Of a stretch of 64,000 bases of DNA, positions 19,260-37,738 are shown one piece after another (position 1 is the first letter of the stretch; every line of letters begins with the position of its first letter). The position numbers and the translations under genes were made by a program. The stretch covers positions 62,001-126,000 of the forward strand of contig NZ_JFHE01000002.1 in assembly GCF_000698555.1 (NCBI RefSeq), read 5' to 3'. Source of the DNA: Caballeronia grimmiae (GTDB lineage: Bacteria > Pseudomonadota > Gammaproteobacteria > Burkholderiales > Burkholderiaceae). The notes under the pieces are model-generated. The model searched no databases. It saw only the letters and a program-made list of their open reading frames with translations, and was not told the origin of the DNA.

Positions 19260-19357
19260 GATCAGAAAGAAACTCGTTGAGCCCGGCTTGGACGCGCGGG
19301 TGCGTGGCAAAGGATTTGCTTCACAGTCCGCCACCTCCGTTCGCTCACGATTCTTTC

Positions 19358-20842
19358 ATGCCGAGACCGTCGTTTTCCACTCAGCTTCTCACGCTCTGGA
19401 TGCTCATTGCTGTGCTCTGCGGCCTGCTGAGTGTCGCGGTATGGCTCATGTTGTCGTCGGCGCTGAGTGAACGTGTCGTCGCCGCCAAGCAGCAAGCGGC
19501 AGCCGCCTGCACGGCCGTTGCCTCGCGCTACGACTTGTCGATGCAGCGCTCCGCAGAAACCAATGTCGACCTGATGCACGCCGTGCTCGATCTCGTGCTG
19601 ATCCAGACCGAAGGCATCGAAGGCGGCTTCTGGACCAGCGAGCCAACGTCAAAGGCGCTGAACGGTTTTATCGCGTACGCATTTCCTACCTATGGCGGCA
19701 GCGGCGTCAAACGCGACATCCCCGAAGCCGAGACACCGCTCATTCTGCGTGCGCTAAGAAGCGCATCGGGCAGCGGGCAGTTGCAGGCCGATATCGTGTC
19801 GAGCGGAACGGACGCCGTGCTCGCGGTAGCCTGTCCCGTCCCGCGTCACGCGGGCCTGCTCGCATGGACGCTCACGCGCGCGCGCCCTCCGCTCGGACCG
19901 TACGGCGAGCGCGCCACGGCCATTCTTGCGAGCGTGCTCGCCGTCATCGTCGTGCTCGCGCTGTTTCTGGCGCTGACGCTCAAGCGATGGAAACACAACC
20001 TCACGCAGCTTGAACATGCGCTCGCGCCCGACGGTGAATTCGAGCAGGGCAAGCGGCTGCACCGCATCGGCGAGCGCGATCTGGACCAGATCGTCGATGC
20101 GCTCAATCGCTATGGCGAGCGGGCCGAGCGGCTCAAGCGCGATGCCGACGCACTGAACCGGCAACTCGCGCAGGCAGAACGGTTCAGCACGTTGGGAAAG
20201 ATGGCGGCACAAATCGCGCATGAGATCCGCAATCCGGCCGGCGCGATGCGACTAAAGGCCGAAAACGCGCTGGCAGGCGACGGCGCGCGCCGCGAAGCCG
20301 CCTTGAGGACGATCATCCAGCAAGTGGGACGCATCGAATTGCAGGTGTCGAGCCTGCTTGCACTGACGCAATCGGTGACGGTCCACGCACGCGAGGTCGA
20401 CCTGCCCGCGTGGCTCGACGATATCGTTCACACGCATGAATCGCGGGCCGAAAGCAGGCATGTCGCACTCGGCGTGGAAGTCGCGCCGCATTCGACGCAG
20501 CCAGTATTCGATCCCGCCCAGCTTGCGCGCGCGCTCGACAACCTTCTCGTGAACGCGCTCAGGCACACGCCGTCGGGCGGAAGCGTGACGGTGCGGGCGT
20601 ACGCTGCGGTCGCGGAAGAAGGCGAACGGCTCAGGCTCGAAGTCATCGATAATGGTCCCGGCGTGAGCCCGGCCGAGCGAGAGCGGATTTTCGAGCCGTT
20701 CGTGACGGGCCGCTCCGACGGATCGGGCCTCGGTCTCGCCGTCGTGCGTGAGATTGCGTCGGCGCATGGCGGCCGCGCTTATCTCGCGGAAGATTCGAAC
20801 ATGACGCGCTTTGTAATCGACTTGCCATGGCGACCATCCTGA
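19358..20842 (+). CDS. Membrane sensor histidine kinase partnered with a sigma-54 activator
   Basis: This 494-residue protein has a first membrane helix at about 8-35, a periplasmic sensor region, and a second helix at about 186-208. A linker leads to HisKA with the phosphorylated His288 (AAQIAHEIRNPAGAM). The ATPase domain has an N box (LLVNALRHTPSGG), DNGPGV, and GRSDGSGLGLAVV. The start is the ATG at 19358, just before the first membrane helix. The longer frame to 18842 overlaps the NmrA gene on the same strand and is rejected. Its last 16 nt overlap the response-regulator gene, so the two proteins are made together. Confidence 0.9.
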   Translation: MPRPSFSTQLLTLWMLIAVLCGLLSVAVWLMLSSALSERVVAAKQQAAAACTAVASRYDLSMQRSAETNVDLMHAVLDLVLIQTEGIEGGFWTSEPTSKALNGFIAYAFPTYGGSGVKRDIPEAETPLILRALRSASGSGQLQADIVSSGTDAVLAVACPVPRHAGLLAWTLTRARPPLGPYGERATAILASVLAVIVVLALFLALTLKRWKHNLTQLEHALAPDGEFEQGKRLHRIGERDLDQIVDALNRYGERAERLKRDADALNRQLAQAERFSTLGKMAAQIAHEIRNPAGAMRLKAENALAGDGARREAALRTIIQQVGRIELQVSSLLALTQSVTVHAREVDLPAWLDDIVHTHESRAESRHVALGVEVAPHSTQPVFDPAQLARALDNLLVNALRHTPSGGSVTVRAYAAVAEEGERLRLEVIDNGPGVSPAERERIFEPFVTGRSDGSGLGLAVVREIASAHGGRAYLAEDSNMTRFVIDLPWRPS

Positions 20843-22197
20843 TCATCGACGACGACGACGCTTTTCGCGAAGGTCTCGCGGAAACGGTGCAAGACCTCGG
20901 TTATTCATCGTCCGAAGCACGTTCGGGGGATGAAGCGTTCGAGCAATTGCGCGGGCGTTCTGCGCCCGACTGTATCTTTCTCGACTTCCGCTTGCCGGGC
21001 GCGGACGGGCTCGCGGTGCTGGAAACCCTGCGCAAGACGCCAGGCCTGCAGACCGTACCGGTCGTGATGCTTACCGCACACGCGACGAGCGACAACACCA
21101 TTGGCGCGATGCGGCTCGGCGCGTTCGAGCATCTCACCAAGCCGGTCGGACGCGAGGAGATCGCCGCGTTGCTCGAGCGCATTCTGTCGGCGCAGCGCGA
21201 GACGCCCGCCGCGCGCGGGTTCGCCGACGAGGCCACGTCGCGTGAGCCGCAACTACTCGGCGCGAGCGAGGCCATGCGCGAGGTGCAGAAGCGCCTTGGC
21301 CGTGCGGCGGGCGGGAATTCGACCGTGCTCATCACGGGCGAAACGGGAACCGGAAAGGAAATCGCGGCGAGCGTGCTGCATCGCGCGTCGGCGCGTGCAA
21401 GCGGCCCGTTCGTCGCGGTGAACTGCGCGGCCATTCCCGACGATCTATTGGAAAGCGAGCTCTTCGGGCACGGCAAGGGTGCGTTCACCGGCGCGCAGGC
21501 CGACAGGCGAGGGCGAGTCGAAGAAGCGCATGGCGGCACGCTCTTTCTCGATGAAGTCGGCGACATGCCGCTCTCCATGCAAGCGAAGCTGCTGCGTGTG
21601 CTTCAGGAGCGGCAAGTCACGCCCCTCGGCACGAACCGGATCGTGACCGTTGATGTGCGGGTGGTCGCCGCCACGCATCGCGATCTCGCCTCGATGGTCG
21701 AAGCGGGCACGTTTCGGCAGGACCTGCTGTTTCGTCTCAACGTGATTCCGCTGCATATGCCGCCGTTGCGCGAGCGCGTGGCGGACATCCTGCCGCTTGC
21801 CGAGCACTTCCTCGCGAGCGCATCGTCCGACGTTGCACGCAAACATCTTTCGGCCGATGCGCAGCGCCTGCTCGCCACCTTCGCCTGGCCGGGCAATGTC
21901 CGCGAGCTTGCCAATGCAATAGAACGGGCCAGCGCGCTTGCGCCGGGACAGGTGCTGACGCGCGACGACTTCGCGTTCCTGACCGCAACGCCAGACAGTG
22001 CGAATGACGCGATTCCCCCGGCACTGCTCGAACTTCCCCTGCCGCAAGCGGTGGCGCAACTGGAGCGCGCGCTGATCGTTCACGCGCTTTCGGCAGCGGG
22101 CGGCAATCGCACCGAGGCGGCGCGGCGGCTCGGCATCAGCCGGCAGTCGCTCTACACGCGCATGGCGGCGCAGGGCATGTCCGAGGCTTCCGCGTGA
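20827..22197 (+). CDS. Sigma-54-dependent response regulator (NtrC family)
   Basis: This 456-residue activator has three domains. The receiver has its phosphoacceptor Asp53 (IFLDFRLPGADG). The AAA+ domain has Walker A GETGTGKE at 171-178, the sigma-54-contacting GAFTGA loop at 219-224, and Walker B GGTLFLDEVGD at about 236. A C-terminal Fis-type HTH is seen in NRTEAARRLGISRQSLYTRM. The intact GAFTGA loop means it can activate sigma-54 polymerase. The only sigma-54 promoter nearby is right after its own stop codon, preceded by three phased palindromes, so the next two genes are its probable target. Confidence 0.95.
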   Translation: MATILIIDDDDAFREGLAETVQDLGYSSSEARSGDEAFEQLRGRSAPDCIFLDFRLPGADGLAVLETLRKTPGLQTVPVVMLTAHATSDNTIGAMRLGAFEHLTKPVGREEIAALLERILSAQRETPAARGFADEATSREPQLLGASEAMREVQKRLGRAAGGNSTVLITGETGTGKEIAASVLHRASARASGPFVAVNCAAIPDDLLESELFGHGKGAFTGAQADRRGRVEEAHGGTLFLDEVGDMPLSMQAKLLRVLQERQVTPLGTNRIVTVDVRVVAATHRDLASMVEAGTFRQDLLFRLNVIPLHMPPLRERVADILPLAEHFLASASSDVARKHLSADAQRLLATFAWPGNVRELANAIERASALAPGQVLTRDDFAFLTATPDSANDAIPPALLELPLPQAVAQLERALIVHALSAAGGNRTEAARRLGISRQSLYTRMAAQGMSEASA

Positions 22198-22200
22198 GCC

Positions 22201-22251
22201 TGACACCGTCAAGGAACCGGACAGGCGCTGTCGGCTGTGTTGACACCGTCA
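22201..22251 (+). promoter_or_regulatory. Three phased palindromes, probable enhancer (UAS) for the sigma-54 activator
   Basis: Two identical copies of TGACACCGTCA (arms TGAC/GTCA) sit at 22201-22211 and 22241-22251. Between them is a different perfect palindrome, GACAGGCGCTGTC, at 22220-22232. The three centres are at 22206, 22226 and 22246, exactly 20 bp apart, so all face the same side of the helix. The last centre lies about 50 bp upstream of the -24 element. The array begins 3 nt after the stop codon of the activator gene. Confidence 0.75.
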
Positions 22252-22296
22252 CGCCTGTTCATCACGTAACCCATTGAGGCGCGGGCGTTTCCCGAA

Positions 22297-22312
22297 TGGC
22301 ATAGCCCTTGCA
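22297..22312 (+). promoter_or_regulatory. Sigma-54 (-24/-12) promoter
   Basis: TGGCATAGCCCTTGCA matches the consensus TGGCAC-N5-TTGCW with one change, and the GG and GC pairs are separated by exactly 10 bp. It lies about 33 bp upstream of the lipoprotein start codon and downstream of three phased palindromes. Confidence 0.85.
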
Positions 22313-22344
22313 GATGACTCCTCGCTACGCGAAAGGAGTGAATC

Positions 22345-23088
22345 ATGCAATCGACTCGATGCCCCAGCTTGCGAACCGCCGTGCTCGCGGCCTTGCTCAC
22401 GGTGAGCGCTGGCTGCGCGGCACAACCCGCTGTAACGCCGACCCCGCCTCCCGTCGCGGCAGACGCTCCGCCGCCGCCCGCTCCACCGCCTCCGGGCGTC
22501 GATCCGCGTCCGCTTGCCGACGCGGCTTCGATGACAACCACGCAGGGCACCGTCGCGCGCTTCCTGACCAATCCGGATGGCGATGTCGACGGTTTCATGA
22601 CCGACGACGGAACCTTCGTGCGCTTTCCGCCGCATATGGGCGCGCAGCTGACTTCGGCGCTTCGCCGTGGTGATCTCGTGCAGGTGAGTGGCGTTCGCGA
22701 GGAAGGAGGCAGCTTCGCTGCGCAACGCATCACCGATACACGAACGGGCCGGCAAGTGATTGACGAGCCGCCGATGCGCGGCCGGCCACCGTTGCCACGC
22801 ACCGCGCGCGGAGCGGGTCTTTCGAGCCTCAGCGCGCAAGGACAGGTGGCCCATGTCACCACGGCGCCGCGCGGCGAACCCGACGGCGTGATCCTGTCTG
22901 ACGGCACCGTCATCAAACTTACGCCACCCGTGGCTCAACAGTTCGCGACGTTGGTACGGACGGGCGCGACGGTATCGGCGCAAGGCTACGGCACGCGTAA
23001 TCAATATGGCACCGCGCTTCAGGCGACCGCGTTCGGCTCTCCGGGCAATCTGACTCCGCTCTACGACCGCAACGCGCCGATGCGTTGA
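22345..23088 (+). CDS. Lipoprotein with two copies of a small repeated beta-rich domain
   Basis: This 247-residue protein of unknown function has a signal peptide ending in a lipobox-like VSAGC (lipid-modified Cys24). A proline-rich linker (residues about 29-55) and two copies of one domain follow. Copy 1 (about 66-132) reads GTVARFLTNPDGDVDGFMTD, then RFPPH and GDLVQVSG. Copy 2 (about 164-230) reads GQVAHVTTAPRGEPDGVIL, then the matching LTPP and GATVSAQG. The alternating pattern suggests a small OB-like barrel, which is an inference. AAGGAG precedes the ATG. A sigma-54 promoter lies just upstream, and a cytosolic paralogue with two more copies lies 49 bp downstream. Confidence 0.8.
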   Translation: MQSTRCPSLRTAVLAALLTVSAGCAAQPAVTPTPPPVAADAPPPPAPPPPGVDPRPLADAASMTTTQGTVARFLTNPDGDVDGFMTDDGTFVRFPPHMGAQLTSALRRGDLVQVSGVREEGGSFAAQRITDTRTGRQVIDEPPMRGRPPLPRTARGAGLSSLSAQGQVAHVTTAPRGEPDGVILSDGTVIKLTPPVAQQFATLVRTGATVSAQGYGTRNQYGTALQATAFGSPGNLTPLYDRNAPMR

Positions 23089-23137
23089 GGCAAGGCCATC
23101 GAGATGTTCAAGCTCACACTCATTAAGGACAATTGAA

Positions 23138-23689
23138 ATGCATTGGATCGATCCCACCAGCCTTCCGGAAACGCGCGGCAAAGTCACGCGTTTTCTATTG
23201 AACCCGCACGGTGAAATCGACGGCCTCGTCATCGGCGCGCGTCAGGTTCACTTTCCGCCGCATCTGTCGACACAACTCGCGCGTCATGTCGCACCTGGCG
23301 ATGCCGTGCGCGTGCGCGGCGTCAAGCCTCGCGATGCAGACATGATCGCCGCCGTTTCGCTGACGACCGCACGCGGCGTTCTGATTCTCGACGAAGGTCC
23401 GCATCACAACGGCGAGAAGCACCACAAGCCGCACGTCGAACGCAAAGCCATGGACGCATCCGGCGAAGTGGTGCTTTCGCTCTTCGGCCCGAGAGGCGAA
23501 TTGCGCGGGGCGCTGCTGGACGACGGAACTTCGCTGCGTATGCCGCCTCATGCCGCAGCGGAGCTGGCCGCTTATCTGAGTCCGGGCGCGCACGTGCACG
23601 CGTGGGGCCACGGCGTGAAGAACCGGCACGGGCGCACGATCGAGGTCGATGAAATAGCCGAACTCATCGACGCACCGCAGGCGGCCTGA
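23138..23689 (+). CDS. Cytosolic paralogue with two copies of the same repeated domain
   Basis: This 183-residue protein of unknown function has no signal peptide. Copy 1 (about 12-76) reads GKVTRFLLNPHGEIDGLVI, then FPPHLSTQLARHV and GDAVRVRG. Copy 2 (about 107-175) reads GEVVLSLFGPRGELRGALL, then MPPHAAAELAAYL and GAHVHAWG. The shared pattern with the upstream lipoprotein is obvious by eye: G-x-V, NP/PRGE-x-DG, PPH, then GD-x-V-x-V-x-G. A His/Lys-rich linker (HHNGEKHHKPHVERK) separates the copies and might bind metal, which is speculative. It is probably co-transcribed from the sigma-54 promoter. Confidence 0.75.
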   Translation: MHWIDPTSLPETRGKVTRFLLNPHGEIDGLVIGARQVHFPPHLSTQLARHVAPGDAVRVRGVKPRDADMIAAVSLTTARGVLILDEGPHHNGEKHHKPHVERKAMDASGEVVLSLFGPRGELRGALLDDGTSLRMPPHAAAELAAYLSPGAHVHAWGHGVKNRHGRTIEVDEIAELIDAPQAA

Positions 23690-23721: not shown

Positions 23722-24030
23722 ATGTTGAGCTGGGCGCGCTTCGGAGATCGTCATGCGTCGTACAACGACCGCAACGGGAGTCTCGGCCATCCGACGTCGA
23801 TGATCCAGCTAGTCAATCGCCACCTGTCCGACCGCTTGACGATGACGGCCCTCACGGTGGACGGACGAAGTGCCGAAGGTTCGATCTTGCTTCACCCAGC
23901 GGGTCACCCGGACAAACACCTCGAACGCCACCCGGCACCGATGCGCACGCGGTCGAACCCTGGCCGGAGCACGGCATCGTCGGCGCGCAGCCTGGGCCCA
24001 ACAAGAACCGACGCCATTGGTGAACCATGA
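23722..24030 (+). CDS. Doubtful small ORF between the repeat-protein gene and an MFS gene
   Basis: A 102-codon frame begins with an ATG preceded by GGAG at a reasonable distance and ends in an ATGA overlap with the next gene. These two features argue for it. Against it, the product is Arg/His/Ser-rich, has no recognisable fold or motif, and looks like translated non-coding DNA. It occupies nearly all of the 337-bp gap between 23689 and 24027, in which I see nothing else. Confidence 0.2.
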   Translation: MLSWARFGDRHASYNDRNGSLGHPTSMIQLVNRHLSDRLTMTALTVDGRSAEGSILLHPAGHPDKHLERHPAPMRTRSNPGRSTASSARSLGPTRTDAIGEP

Positions 24031-25271
24031 ATCCTCGATACGCACTCGAAGGACTGAATTTCTTCATGGCCGATGTGCAGGCAGGCATCGGGCCGTTCCT
24101 CGGCGTCTTTCTGCAGGCGCATGGCTGGCATCCGGGGGCGATCGGCACGGTCATGACGTTGGGCGGTATCGCGGGCATGATCGCAACGTCTCCGGCGGGG
24201 GCTCTGGTCGATGCCACTCATCACAAGCGCGGCATCATCGTCATCGCGGGGGTGATGACGACGCTGGCGCCGCTCGTGTTGTGGGTGTCGCACAGTTACT
24301 GGATGGTGGCTGCGTCGCAGATATTCACTGCCGTGACGGGGGCCGCGCTGGGTCCGGCCGTGGCCGGCGTGACGCTGGGCATCGTTCGCGAACAGGGCTT
24401 CGATCGGCAATTCGGCCGTAATCAGGTGGCCAATCATGCGGGCAACGTGGTCGGGGCCGCGCTCTCGGGCTGGCTCGGATGGCGCTATGGATTCGGCGCG
24501 GTCTTCGTGCTCGTCGGCGTATTCGGCTGCTTGACCGTCATCTCGACGCTGCTCATCCGGCGCGACGCGATCGATCACGACAGCGCACGCGGTCTCGGCG
24601 GACCGGCGTCGGGTAAGCCGGAACGGGAGCATGAGCAGGCGAGCGGGTTTCGTGTCTTGCTGACCTGCCAGCCATTGATGCTTCTTGCCGCGTCGCTCGC
24701 GCTGTTTCATTTGGGCAATGCGGCGATGCTGCCGCTTTACGGCCTCGCGGTCGTCGCGGCGCATCAGGGCGATCCGAGCGCCTTTACCGCCCAGACCATC
24801 GTGGTCGCGCAGCTCGTGATGGTCGTCGCGGCGTGTGTTGCTAACCGGCTGATTGGGCGCATCGGTTACTGGGGCGTCATCCTGATCACTTTCCTCGCGC
24901 TCCCGCTACGCGGATTGCTCGCCGCAATGTTCATCACCGCGTGGGGCGTATGGCCGGTTCAGGCGCTGGACGGCATCGGCGCGGGCTTGCAGAGCGTCGC
25001 GGTGCCCGCGCTGGTGGTGCGGCTGCTGCAAGGCACGGGACGGGTGAACGTCGGGCAAGGCGTCGTCATGACCGTGCAAGGCGCGGGCGCTGCGCTGAGT
25101 CCTGCGCTGGGTGGCGTGCTCGCCCAGCATTTCGGATACGCAAGCGCTTTTCTCGTGCTGGGCGCCGTGTCTACCGGATCGCTCGCGCTGTGGCTGCTGT
25201 TCGGCACCGCCCTCAAAAAAGCGTGCGGCCTTCGCCGCGACGTCACTAACGATGCGCCTCTGGCAACATGA
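24027..25271 (+). CDS. MFS transporter
   Basis: This 414-residue protein has about 12 hydrophobic helices. It begins MNPRYALEGLNFFMADVQAG and has the loop after helix 2 as SPAGALVDATHHKRG, a variant of the MFS signature. Helix-rich repeats such as GAALGPAVAGVTLGIV follow. It resembles the large uncharacterised MFS group often annotated as drug or sugar exporters. Its stop codon overlaps the start of the ArsB-like gene by ATGA, so the two membrane proteins are translationally coupled. Confidence 0.85.
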   Translation: MNPRYALEGLNFFMADVQAGIGPFLGVFLQAHGWHPGAIGTVMTLGGIAGMIATSPAGALVDATHHKRGIIVIAGVMTTLAPLVLWVSHSYWMVAASQIFTAVTGAALGPAVAGVTLGIVREQGFDRQFGRNQVANHAGNVVGAALSGWLGWRYGFGAVFVLVGVFGCLTVISTLLIRRDAIDHDSARGLGGPASGKPEREHEQASGFRVLLTCQPLMLLAASLALFHLGNAAMLPLYGLAVVAAHQGDPSAFTAQTIVVAQLVMVVAACVANRLIGRIGYWGVILITFLALPLRGLLAAMFITAWGVWPVQALDGIGAGLQSVAVPALVVRLLQGTGRVNVGQGVVMTVQGAGAALSPALGGVLAQHFGYASAFLVLGAVSTGSLALWLLFGTALKKACGLRRDVTNDAPLAT

Positions 25272-26521
25272 ATCCAATTTTTCTTTCGTGGGGCATTGCG
25301 CTCGCCGCCACTGCCGGCGTCATCCTGCGGCCTTTCCGATGGCCCGAAGCGATCTGGGCCGTCGCCGGCGCACTCGTGCTCGTCGCGTTCGGCCTGCTTC
25401 CCGCGCAGCTTGCCTGGCAAGCGGTCGGCAAGGGCACGGACGTCTATCTCTTTCTCATCGGCATGATGTTGCTCTCGGAGCTGGGACGTCGCGAAGGCCT
25501 GTTCGACTGGGTCGCGGTGCATGCCGTCAATTACGCAAAGGGATCGCCTCGCAAGCTCTTTACGCTGGTGTATCTCGTGGGCGTCGTGGTGACGACTTTC
25601 CTGTCGAACGACGCAGCCGCCGTCGTCCTCACGCCCGCGGTGTTCGCCGCCGCCAGAAAAGCGAAGACGAAGCCGCTTCCGTTGCTCTACGTATGTGCGT
25701 TCATCGCCAATGCAGCGAGCTTCGTCCTGCCGATCTCGAACCCCGCGAACCTCGTGCTCTATGCGAACCACACGCCGGCGCTCGGTCTCTGGGTCGCGCG
25801 TTTTGCCTTGCCGTCGGTGCTGTCGATTGCCGCCACGTTCGTCATGTTGCGCTGGACCCAGCGTGCGGATCTGGGCGGTGCGTGCGCCTGCGACCTGCCT
25901 GTGGAAAGACTGAGCACGAACGGCAAAGTCACGCTAGCCAGCATGGGCGTGACGGCGGTCGCGCTGCTCGTGGTCTCGGCCTTCGATCTGCAGCTCGGTC
26001 TGCCCACGGCGATTCTCGGCATCCTTACGGCGCTGATCGTGTTGGTCAAGGAGCGTCAGTCACCCGTGAAGCTCGTCAGCGAAATATCGTGGAGCGTGTT
26101 ACCGCTCGTCGCGGGACTCTTCGTACTGGTCGAGGTGCTCGATCATACGGGCGTCATACACGAACTCTCGGCGCTTCTGACGCTGGCAACTCGACAGAAT
26201 CAGCCGATGGCGGCAGCGGCGTCCGGTCTCGTCATCGCCTTCGGAAGCAACGCGATCAACAATCTGCCTGCCGGACTCATCGCGAGTGCCACGGCCTTGC
26301 AGGCGCACAGCCCGGAGCGCGTCATCGACGCTCTGCTAATCGGCGTGGACCTCGGCCCGAATCTCTCCATCACCGGCTCGCTCGCGACCATTCTCTGGCT
26401 CTCGTCGATTCGACGCGAAGGCGAGGAAGTCGGCTTCGTGCAGTTTCTGAAAGTCGGCATTGTCGTCATGCTTCCGGCGCTGGTTCTCGCGCTCGGCAGC
26501 CGGCTCCTTGCCGGACACTGA
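25268..26521 (+). CDS. ArsB/NhaD (ion transporter superfamily) membrane transporter
   Basis: This 417-residue polytopic inner-membrane protein of the IT superfamily resembles ArsB, the arsenite efflux pump. Family features are FLIGMMLLSELGRREGLFDW, TTFLSNDAAAVVLTPAV (a hairpin-loop motif with the conserved Asn-Asp) and ANAASFVLPISNPANLVLY. The repeated second-half loop is FGSNAINNLPAGL. The gene follows the MFS gene with an ATGA overlap and precedes a small DMT transporter. No arsR, arsC or arsenic-linked gene is near, so arsenite specificity is unproved. Confidence 0.85.
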   Translation: MNPIFLSWGIALAATAGVILRPFRWPEAIWAVAGALVLVAFGLLPAQLAWQAVGKGTDVYLFLIGMMLLSELGRREGLFDWVAVHAVNYAKGSPRKLFTLVYLVGVVVTTFLSNDAAAVVLTPAVFAAARKAKTKPLPLLYVCAFIANAASFVLPISNPANLVLYANHTPALGLWVARFALPSVLSIAATFVMLRWTQRADLGGACACDLPVERLSTNGKVTLASMGVTAVALLVVSAFDLQLGLPTAILGILTALIVLVKERQSPVKLVSEISWSVLPLVAGLFVLVEVLDHTGVIHELSALLTLATRQNQPMAAAASGLVIAFGSNAINNLPAGLIASATALQAHSPERVIDALLIGVDLGPNLSITGSLATILWLSSIRREGEEVGFVQFLKVGIVVMLPALVLALGSRLLAGH

Positions 26522-26542: not shown

Positions 26543-26989
26543 ATGAGCAGCGCATGGATTTATCCCTTCATCATCTTGGGCGGCGTCCTCCAGGCTGCGG
26601 GCGCTCCGATCAATGGCGAACTCAAGGGCGCGCTCGTCAATCCGTGGCTCGCGTCGAGCGTGTCGTTTCTTCTCGTGACGTTTCTCGCCATCACCTTGTT
26701 CTGGATTCAGCCAACCCCGTTGCCGACACTCGATGACCTGCGCAGCATGAAATGGTGGGCGCCGCTTGGCGGCATCGTGGGCGCGGTCGCGGTGTTCGCG
26801 GGACTGACGCTCGTGCAGAAAGTGGGCGTTGGCACGCTCAATGGGCTGACCATCTGCGCCAACCTGGTTGCATCGGTTGCGATCGACCATTTCGGTTTGA
26901 TCGGCGTGGCCGGGCATCCGCTGAGCTGGCTGCGCGCGCTCGGCACGGTGTTGATGGTGGCGGGCGTCGCGCTCGTCATGCGATTCTGA
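26543..26989 (+). CDS. Small DMT transporter of the YdcZ (DUF606) family
   Basis: This 148-residue protein has five hydrophobic helices and is a half-size member of the drug/metabolite transporter superfamily. It shows GAPINGELKGALVNPWLAS near the N-terminus and LTICANLVASVAIDHFGLIG in the second half, both characteristic of YdcZ proteins. Such proteins usually dimerise. It is 21 bp after the ArsB-like gene with GGAGAC before the start, so it is likely the third gene of this transporter operon. Substrate is unknown. Confidence 0.88.
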   Translation: MSSAWIYPFIILGGVLQAAGAPINGELKGALVNPWLASSVSFLLVTFLAITLFWIQPTPLPTLDDLRSMKWWAPLGGIVGAVAVFAGLTLVQKVGVGTLNGLTICANLVASVAIDHFGLIGVAGHPLSWLRALGTVLMVAGVALVMRF

Positions 26990-37722: not shown

Positions 37723-37738
37723 TGGCACCCTCCTTGCA
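37723..37738 (+). promoter_or_regulatory. Consensus sigma-54 (-24/-12) promoter for the second fae homologue
   Basis: TGGCACCCTCCTTGCA matches TGGCAC-N5-TTGCW perfectly, with the required 10 bp between GG and GC. It is 45 bp upstream of the start codon of the fae-like gene and reads toward it. Confidence 0.9.

Follow-up and report, generated by a model that had tools for sequence, protein, structure and literature searches.

Two-component systems in which a membrane kinase works with a sigma-54 AAA+ response regulator include AtoSC and ZraSR-ZraP, and ZraSR governs a sigma-54-driven envelope protein. DctBD and CitAB combine a Cache-like periplasmic sensor with the control of transporters, and DctD is also a sigma-54 activator. 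Two-component control of transport through sigma-54 is an already known kind of regulation. Here, we analysed a stretch of 64,000 nucleotides from Caballeronia grimmiae (contig NZ_JFHE01000002.1, positions 62,001 to 126,000 of the forward strand; the whole stretch is called the window below), in which genes for a kinase and an NtrC-type activator precede genes for a lipoprotein and its cytosolic paralogue. The regulatory architecture of this module is very probably that of two-component sigma-54 control exerted through a conserved operator pair, and comparison across genomes assigns to its regulon two tandem OB-fold proteins, a metallophosphoesterase and members of three transporter families. 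We found no description of this make-up (paired OB-fold proteins, three transporter families, a phosphoesterase and an operator code with one-turn variants) in the open-access literature covered by our search terms; the passages of PMC5979394 that we consulted contain nothing on the module, and those of PMC11722255 do not describe the system.

The kinase, the activator and their predicted operator pair

The regulatory elements of the module in the window are the following.

19358–20842, + strand: sensor histidine kinase (Pfam HisKA and HATPase_c; H-box His288)
20827–22197, + strand: NtrC-type response regulator, the activator (Pfam receiver, sigma-54 AAA+ and Fis helix-turn-helix)
22207–22223, + strand: operator A, CGTCAAGGAACCGGACA, TGTC-N9-GACA with 1 mismatch
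22229–22245, + strand: operator B, TGTCGGCTGTGTTGACA, TGTC-N9-GACA with 0 mismatches, centred 60 bp upstream of the -24 element
22297–22312, + strand: sigma-54 promoter, TGGCATAGCCCTTGCA

We compared the window with 65 named loci, all collected by a single scan whose query was an alignment of 15 lipoprotein sequences. Upstream regions numbered 62 after omission of L053, L093, L095 and L096, and operators were counted in register in 55 loci, a further 7 of the 62 regions being omitted. In 52 of the 62 regions there are two 17-bp TGTC-N9-GACA sites that are spaced by exactly 22 bp and deviate at no more than 2 of 16 positions; no pair within this limit occurred among 6,200 dinucleotide shuffles. 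Operator A shows no more than 1 mismatch in 52 of the 55 in-register loci, and the same count holds for operator B. Five Burkholderia sensu stricto loci (L086, L087, L088, L090 and L091) show a spacing of 32 bp, i.e., one extra helical turn, and a B. cenocepacia replicon carries a 32-bp pair free of mismatches. In 50 of the 52 regions with 22-bp spacing, 59–62 bp separate the -24 box from the centre of the second site upstream of it; this distance is 60 bp in all five loci with 32-bp spacing. Pairs spaced by 21–23 bp also occur in the farther relatives L093, L119, L139, L144, L145, L147, L148 and L149. The -24/-12 promoter of the locus is preceded by inverted-repeat sites in register with it, an arrangement expected for targets of NtrC-type regulators. 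In the C. grimmiae genome itself, the module locus holds the sole operator pair with at most 2 mismatches; nine further places have 3 mismatches, near the control level of 6.

The earlier note on this DNA, made from the letters of the window, had proposed a near-consensus sigma-54 promoter at 22297–22312, which is present, preceded by three palindromes behind the activator stop codon, phased by 20 bp and taken as operators. The letters of the palindromes are there, but the comparison does not bear them out as operators: the outer two recur with at most 1 mismatch in only 6 and 3 of 55 loci and are, judged by this comparison, accidents of the window sequence. The middle one is matched within the same limit in 26 of 55 loci and is partly kept because it is built from the inner halves of the two neighbouring sites. 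What is conserved across loci is the underlying operators and the -24/-12 element, not the palindromes as drawn, and the prevailing spacing is 22 rather than 20 bp. The related proposal that the sites occupy one face of the helix is supported, as the conserved spacings of 21–23 or 32 bp would correspond to two or three turns. The natural variants of 22 and 32 bp, one turn apart, offer material for studying how NtrC-type activators assemble.

Several observations weaken the case. Five of the 62 regions (L033, L077, L080, L082 and L089) lack a pair with at most 2 mismatches at either 22 or 32 bp, L077 and L082 having theirs at 23 bp, and L079, L047, L036, L037 and L039 match at 25, 27 or 29 bp besides their 22-bp pair. 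The far relatives L111, L113, L117, L118, L140 and L146 yielded no pair within a limit of 1 mismatch. The four loci outside the 62 and the seven more outside the in-register 55 also have to be borne in mind.

The kinase and activator genes overlap, as had been noted before. The overlap measures 16 nt in the window, and an overlap is kept across 55 loci, of which 37 have 16 nt, 15 have 19 nt and 3 have 4 nt. The activator carries the phospho-acceptor Asp53, GAFTGA at position 218 and a Fis helix-turn-helix, and by these domains and motifs it is an NtrC-type sigma-54 response regulator. Among 54 relatives, GAFTGA is found in 50 (GAYTGA in L078, L079 and L085; the L032 match is cut) and the receiver Asp motif in 52. 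The periplasmic region of the kinase is predicted by AlphaFold to form a Cache/PAS-like sensor domain with WalK, CitA and dCache as structural neighbours, and a profile of this domain gave no match among PDB sequences. The genome encodes sigma-54 twice (rpoN genes at G000:C4:264303 and G000:C3:203085). Elsewhere in the window, we observed another strong sigma-54-like match, TGGCACCCTCCTTGCA, at 37723–37738.

The predicted target operon and the wider regulon

Behind the promoter follow six genes or gene remnants, which probably form one transcript from the lipoprotein to the YdcZ-type gene.

22345–23088, + strand: lipoprotein, paralogue of the tandem OB-fold protein (Cys24 shared by all 15 sequences aligned)
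23138–23689, + strand: cytosolic tandem OB-fold paralogue (two domains of one fold in the model)
23722–24030, + strand: metallophosphoesterase remnant with an internal deletion of ~800 bp (both ends align to the L036, L037 and L065 copies)
24027–25271, + strand: MFS transporter of the same operon
25268–26521, + strand: ArsB/CitMHS-type anion transporter (overlaps the MFS gene by 4 nt)
26543–26989, + strand: YdcZ-type (DMT) putative inner-membrane exporter (L124 and L156 are annotated with this order)

The operon runs on to about 26989, beyond the 23689 that closes the stretch described in the earlier note. The lipoprotein gene and its cytosolic paralogue are as previously described; their products share 34% identity. 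The signal peptide ends in the invariant Cys24, as in bacterial lipoproteins; lipidation is not general, since the counterparts in L111 and L113 show no such Cys. The structural model of the cytosolic paralogue matches solved OB folds, and an OB profile searched against PDB sequences returned only designed trefoils and an HU-like chain with weak E-values and no single-strand-binding protein. In Pfam, the lipoprotein scores 21.6 with DUF5666, below the gathering cut-off of 27, and the paralogue gives no DUF5666 hit. The ArsB-like protein reaches 172.4 with the NCBIfam ArsB model, under its cut-off of 457, and fits solved ArsB in the PDB with an E-value of 5e-29, far better than the NadC/VcINDY carriers. 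The phosphoesterase gene is intact in relatives, and only its two ends remain in the window.

Among 55 loci with kinase, regulator and lipoprotein, for which the ends of the loci lower the counts, the cytosolic OB gene is present in 51, the MFS gene in 49, the ArsB-like gene in 29, the phosphoesterase gene in 7 and the YdcZ gene in 5. Of the 33 loci in which no phosphoesterase gene intervenes, 18 have a gap of 18–45 nt between the OB and MFS genes, and the MFS and ArsB-like genes overlap by at least 1 nt in 9 of 26 loci, as read from match coordinates. The eight-gene order is annotated under generic names in Caballeronia sp. M1242 and Paraburkholderia sp. D15.

A scan of 58 genomes of the genus, allowing no more than 1 mismatch, gave 35 operator pairs, spread over 27 genomes; the reversed control pattern gave none. 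All 35 could be assigned, and 34 precede regulon genes: 29 stand before the OB gene in the place of the lipoprotein (diverged in G022:C87, damaged in G052:C8), three before unlinked metallophosphoesterase–MFS–ArsB-like–YdcZ operons (G022, G030 and G036), one before the cytosolic OB gene (G019) and one before the kinase gene (G029). In G019 the module is split across two contigs, each half with its own operator pair and sigma-54 site. The kinase occurs in 28 of the 58 genomes, the lipoprotein (E-value at most 1e-60) in 29 and both in 28 (Fisher 2e-15).

Outside the genus, a sample of 299 genomes of the family yielded 42 operator sites, of which 30 were assigned. Twenty-three lie at regulon genes (17 beside OB genes by coordinates, five upstream of the kinase gene and one before a phosphoesterase–ArsB-like–YdcZ operon), two precede a paralogous kinase-regulator pair linked to an RND gene, and five are found elsewhere (three near an unrelated sigma-54 activator, two without a regulon gene).

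Taken together, the comparison establishes the predicted operators, promoter, spacing and regulon membership: two tandem OB-fold proteins, the metallophosphoesterase, and the MFS, ArsB-like and YdcZ transporters, joined by the kinase in some lineages. The suggestion of a relay controlling an envelope lipoprotein and its cytosolic relative gains support from this comparison. The view of the module as self-contained does not hold, as the same operators precede the metallophosphoesterase, MFS, ArsB-like and YdcZ genes, adjacent or unlinked; we rejected a single-target regulator because these operators recur at the unlinked operons. Proteins so far labelled "hypothetical" thereby come together in one regulon with a readable operator code, and its natural split operons likewise lend themselves to studies of activator assembly.

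The case is weakened by a perfect operator pair without an adjoining regulon gene (G007:C30), the absence of the lipoprotein at the same E-value limit from 29 of the 58 genomes, and the absence of an MFS gene near 6 of the 55 loci. The pattern is also less specific outside the genus, where the reversed control matches in 6 of 299 genomes.

As for the regulatory genes themselves, a second sigma-54-like element lies in front of the kinase gene.

19305–19320, + strand: sigma-54-like element, TGGCAAAGGATTTGCT, 1 mismatch, ending 37 nt before the kinase ATG

Of 52 loci, 19 have TGGC-N7-TTGCT here, and 13 more have AGGC, CGGC or GGGC-N7-TTGC at a comparable position; an alignment of the 19 upstream regions has no invariant column beyond the element. 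An operator pair precedes the kinase gene in six genomes of other lineages. In L190, L191 and L193 the pair lies between divergent transporter and kinase genes, with a sigma-54 site 60 bp off towards the transporter and a weaker one 85, 56 or 95 bp off towards the kinase. Because of the pair and the sigma-54 sites there, self-activation appears likely in lineages with an operator pair before the kinase gene. Autoregulation in the lineage of the window may be hypothesised as well, and three points count against it: the 19 loci were selected for having the element, so that the denominator is 52; the kinase promoter in the window's lineage lacks an operator pair, and only single sites that are not shared were seen in the 19; and the window's one TGTC-N9-GACA-like site there, which has 1 mismatch and lies 124 bp ahead of the kinase gene, is such an unshared site.

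Related sites and isolated genes were also encountered. L195, L196 and L197 (genus g3) have another sigma-54 activator, 38% identical to part of the window's regulator, near which stand a sigma-54-like site and a TGTC-N9-GACA pair whose inner sequence differs; this may be a related operator code. Stand-alone cytosolic OB copies of 69–73% identity are present in L152 and L153 (Caballeronia sp. SL2Y3 and M1242), where they sit between genes for a FadR-type regulator and an amidohydrolase, and in L114–L116, where no operator pair with at most 2 mismatches was found. In Noviherbaspirillum pedocola (L095, 6731–7729), short pieces of kinase, regulator and lipoprotein follow one another in order before an intact cytosolic OB gene and are the remains of a decayed module.

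Occurrence outside the genus and an RND-linked branch

The cassette or its core is found on alphaproteobacterial plasmids, those of Bradyrhizobium, Methylocystis and Acidiphilium, where the annotation is generic (hypothetical protein, MFS transporter, arsenic transporter); the Methylocystis plasmid cassette has a 22-bp operator pair. In a Verrucomicrobiota metagenome-assembled genome, a 21-bp pair stands upstream of an OB gene with kinase and regulator genes behind it and divergent MFS and ArsB-like genes. A Spirosoma plasmid carries YdcZ, phosphoesterase, ArsB-like and OB genes in this order, with no kinase or regulator annotated in that stretch. The OB family is sparse outside the genus (68 of 299 family, 5 of 300 order and 9 of 398 phylum genomes), which weakens the case. 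In L063, a record named Frateuria sp. Soil773 and thus a gammaproteobacterium by name, kinase and regulator are 76–78% identical to those of the window, which reflects either transfer or a wrong name.

A paralogous kinase-regulator pair linked to an RND gene was identified in L202/L203 (G864:C3 and G885:C151), L200 and L201, with 36–37% and 53% identity. The regulator tree places L202/L203 among regulators standing beside OB genes, with support of 96/93 for the grouping with L139 and 100/98 for that with L117/L119. In this branch, double operators of a similar kind face the RND adaptor gene, and a sigma-54 site lies at a distance of 61 or 71 bp. As far as the tree and the sites indicate, the RND-linked regulators are nested within this regulator family and share its kind of operators. 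The adaptor passes the RND_mfp cut-off and has MdtA/MuxA as its best model. Its score is just below the MdtA/MuxA cut-off (about 367 of 391), and the tree leaves the position of the long rows L093 and L118 uncertain; both points weaken the case.

Possible function and comparison with known systems

We propose that a periplasmic signal would reach the Cache-like sensor domain of the kinase, which would phosphorylate the NtrC-type regulator. Dimers of the regulator would then occupy both TGTC-N9-GACA operators, which are separated by two (or three) turns of the helix, and assemble into the active AAA+ oligomer. By DNA looping this oligomer would contact sigma-54 polymerase at the -24/-12 element, about 60 bp downstream of the second site. 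Such a phosphorelay and activation would follow from the known families. The unit transcribed would run from lipoprotein and cytosolic OB protein through the phosphoesterase, where present, to the MFS, ArsB-like and YdcZ transporters, with the regulatory genes in the loop through their sigma-54-like promoter and, in some lineages, an operator pair of their own. The products may well export or detoxify a small, perhaps anionic, compound, and the OB-fold proteins could act as binding or buffering factors on either side of the inner membrane.

In our judgement, the module probably heads a sigma-54 regulon of its own that serves to export or tolerate a compound; for export as such, we regard the chances as even. 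The RND-linked branch, YdcZ and the ArsB-like protein together make export or tolerance a better guess than import. Such a function would have gone unrecognised in soil bacteria and symbionts related to Burkholderia, and it has relatives on plasmids as well as in other phyla. A more ambitious picture, which we offer tentatively and consider less likely than not, is a widespread, horizontally moving export system with a self-amplifying sigma-54 switch, MFS, ArsB-like and YdcZ exporters, a phosphoesterase, and OB carriers in envelope and cytosol holding the same cargo across the inner membrane.

The strongest competitor to export or tolerance is nutrient acquisition, in which an organic acid or phosphate ester would be sensed outside, imported and cleaved by the phosphoesterase, as with DctBD/CitAB. 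ArsB/CitMHS relatives include importers and CitA-type Cache sensors sense nutrients, which counts against export. We nevertheless hold it unlikely: YdcZ is annotated as a putative exporter, the ArsB-like protein fits solved ArsB far above the NadC/VcINDY carriers, and a branch of the same regulator family accompanies an RND efflux gene. Moreover, among the 30 most shared clusters of flanking open reading frames, those recognised are all cassette genes and the rest look antisense or out of frame.

An envelope-stress response like that of ZraSR-ZraP, with the lipoprotein as periplasmic chaperone or feedback factor and the transporters secondary, would explain the similar gross layout, the ranking of AtoS and ZraS as the two best NCBIfam models of the kinase, and the finding that an OB gene in the lipoprotein's place most often directly follows the operators (29 of 35). 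The equivalog scores are, however, far under their cut-offs (AtoS 136.9 of 646 and ZraS 130.1 of 479 for the kinase; AtoC 420.6 of 714 and ZraR 355.3 of 760 for the activator), and operators remain with phosphoesterase-transporter operons split from the lipoprotein. In L146–L149, the locus has a single cytosolic-type OB gene, though three of these four genomes have further OB genes elsewhere. We accordingly give envelope stress only a slim chance. Anti-phage defence was dismissed, the sole PADLOC hits being to the AAA+/helix-turn-helix region of the regulator.

The export or tolerance regulon that we favour resembles several described systems in part. It is distinguished from ZraSR-ZraP and AtoSC by its targets, tandem OB-fold proteins and three transporter families, as well as by sub-equivalog scores. 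Gene content sets it apart from DctBD/CitAB, which control a single carrier, whereas the module has two OB-fold proteins, MFS, ArsB-like and YdcZ transporters and a phosphoesterase. With ars operons it has an ArsB-superfamily membrane transporter in common; in the full records L124 and L156, the two looked at, no ars regulator or reductase is annotated, and the module differs in its sigma-54 operators and in an ArsB-like protein scoring below the ArsB cut-off. Unlike DUF5666 and the single-strand-binding or PriB OB folds, its OB proteins are tandem-domain proteins and lie below the DUF5666 threshold. RND (MdtA/MuxA-type) efflux under two-component control shares the double operator kind through the L202/L203 branch, whereas the operators in the window precede OB-fold, MFS, ArsB-like and YdcZ genes in place of an RND pump.

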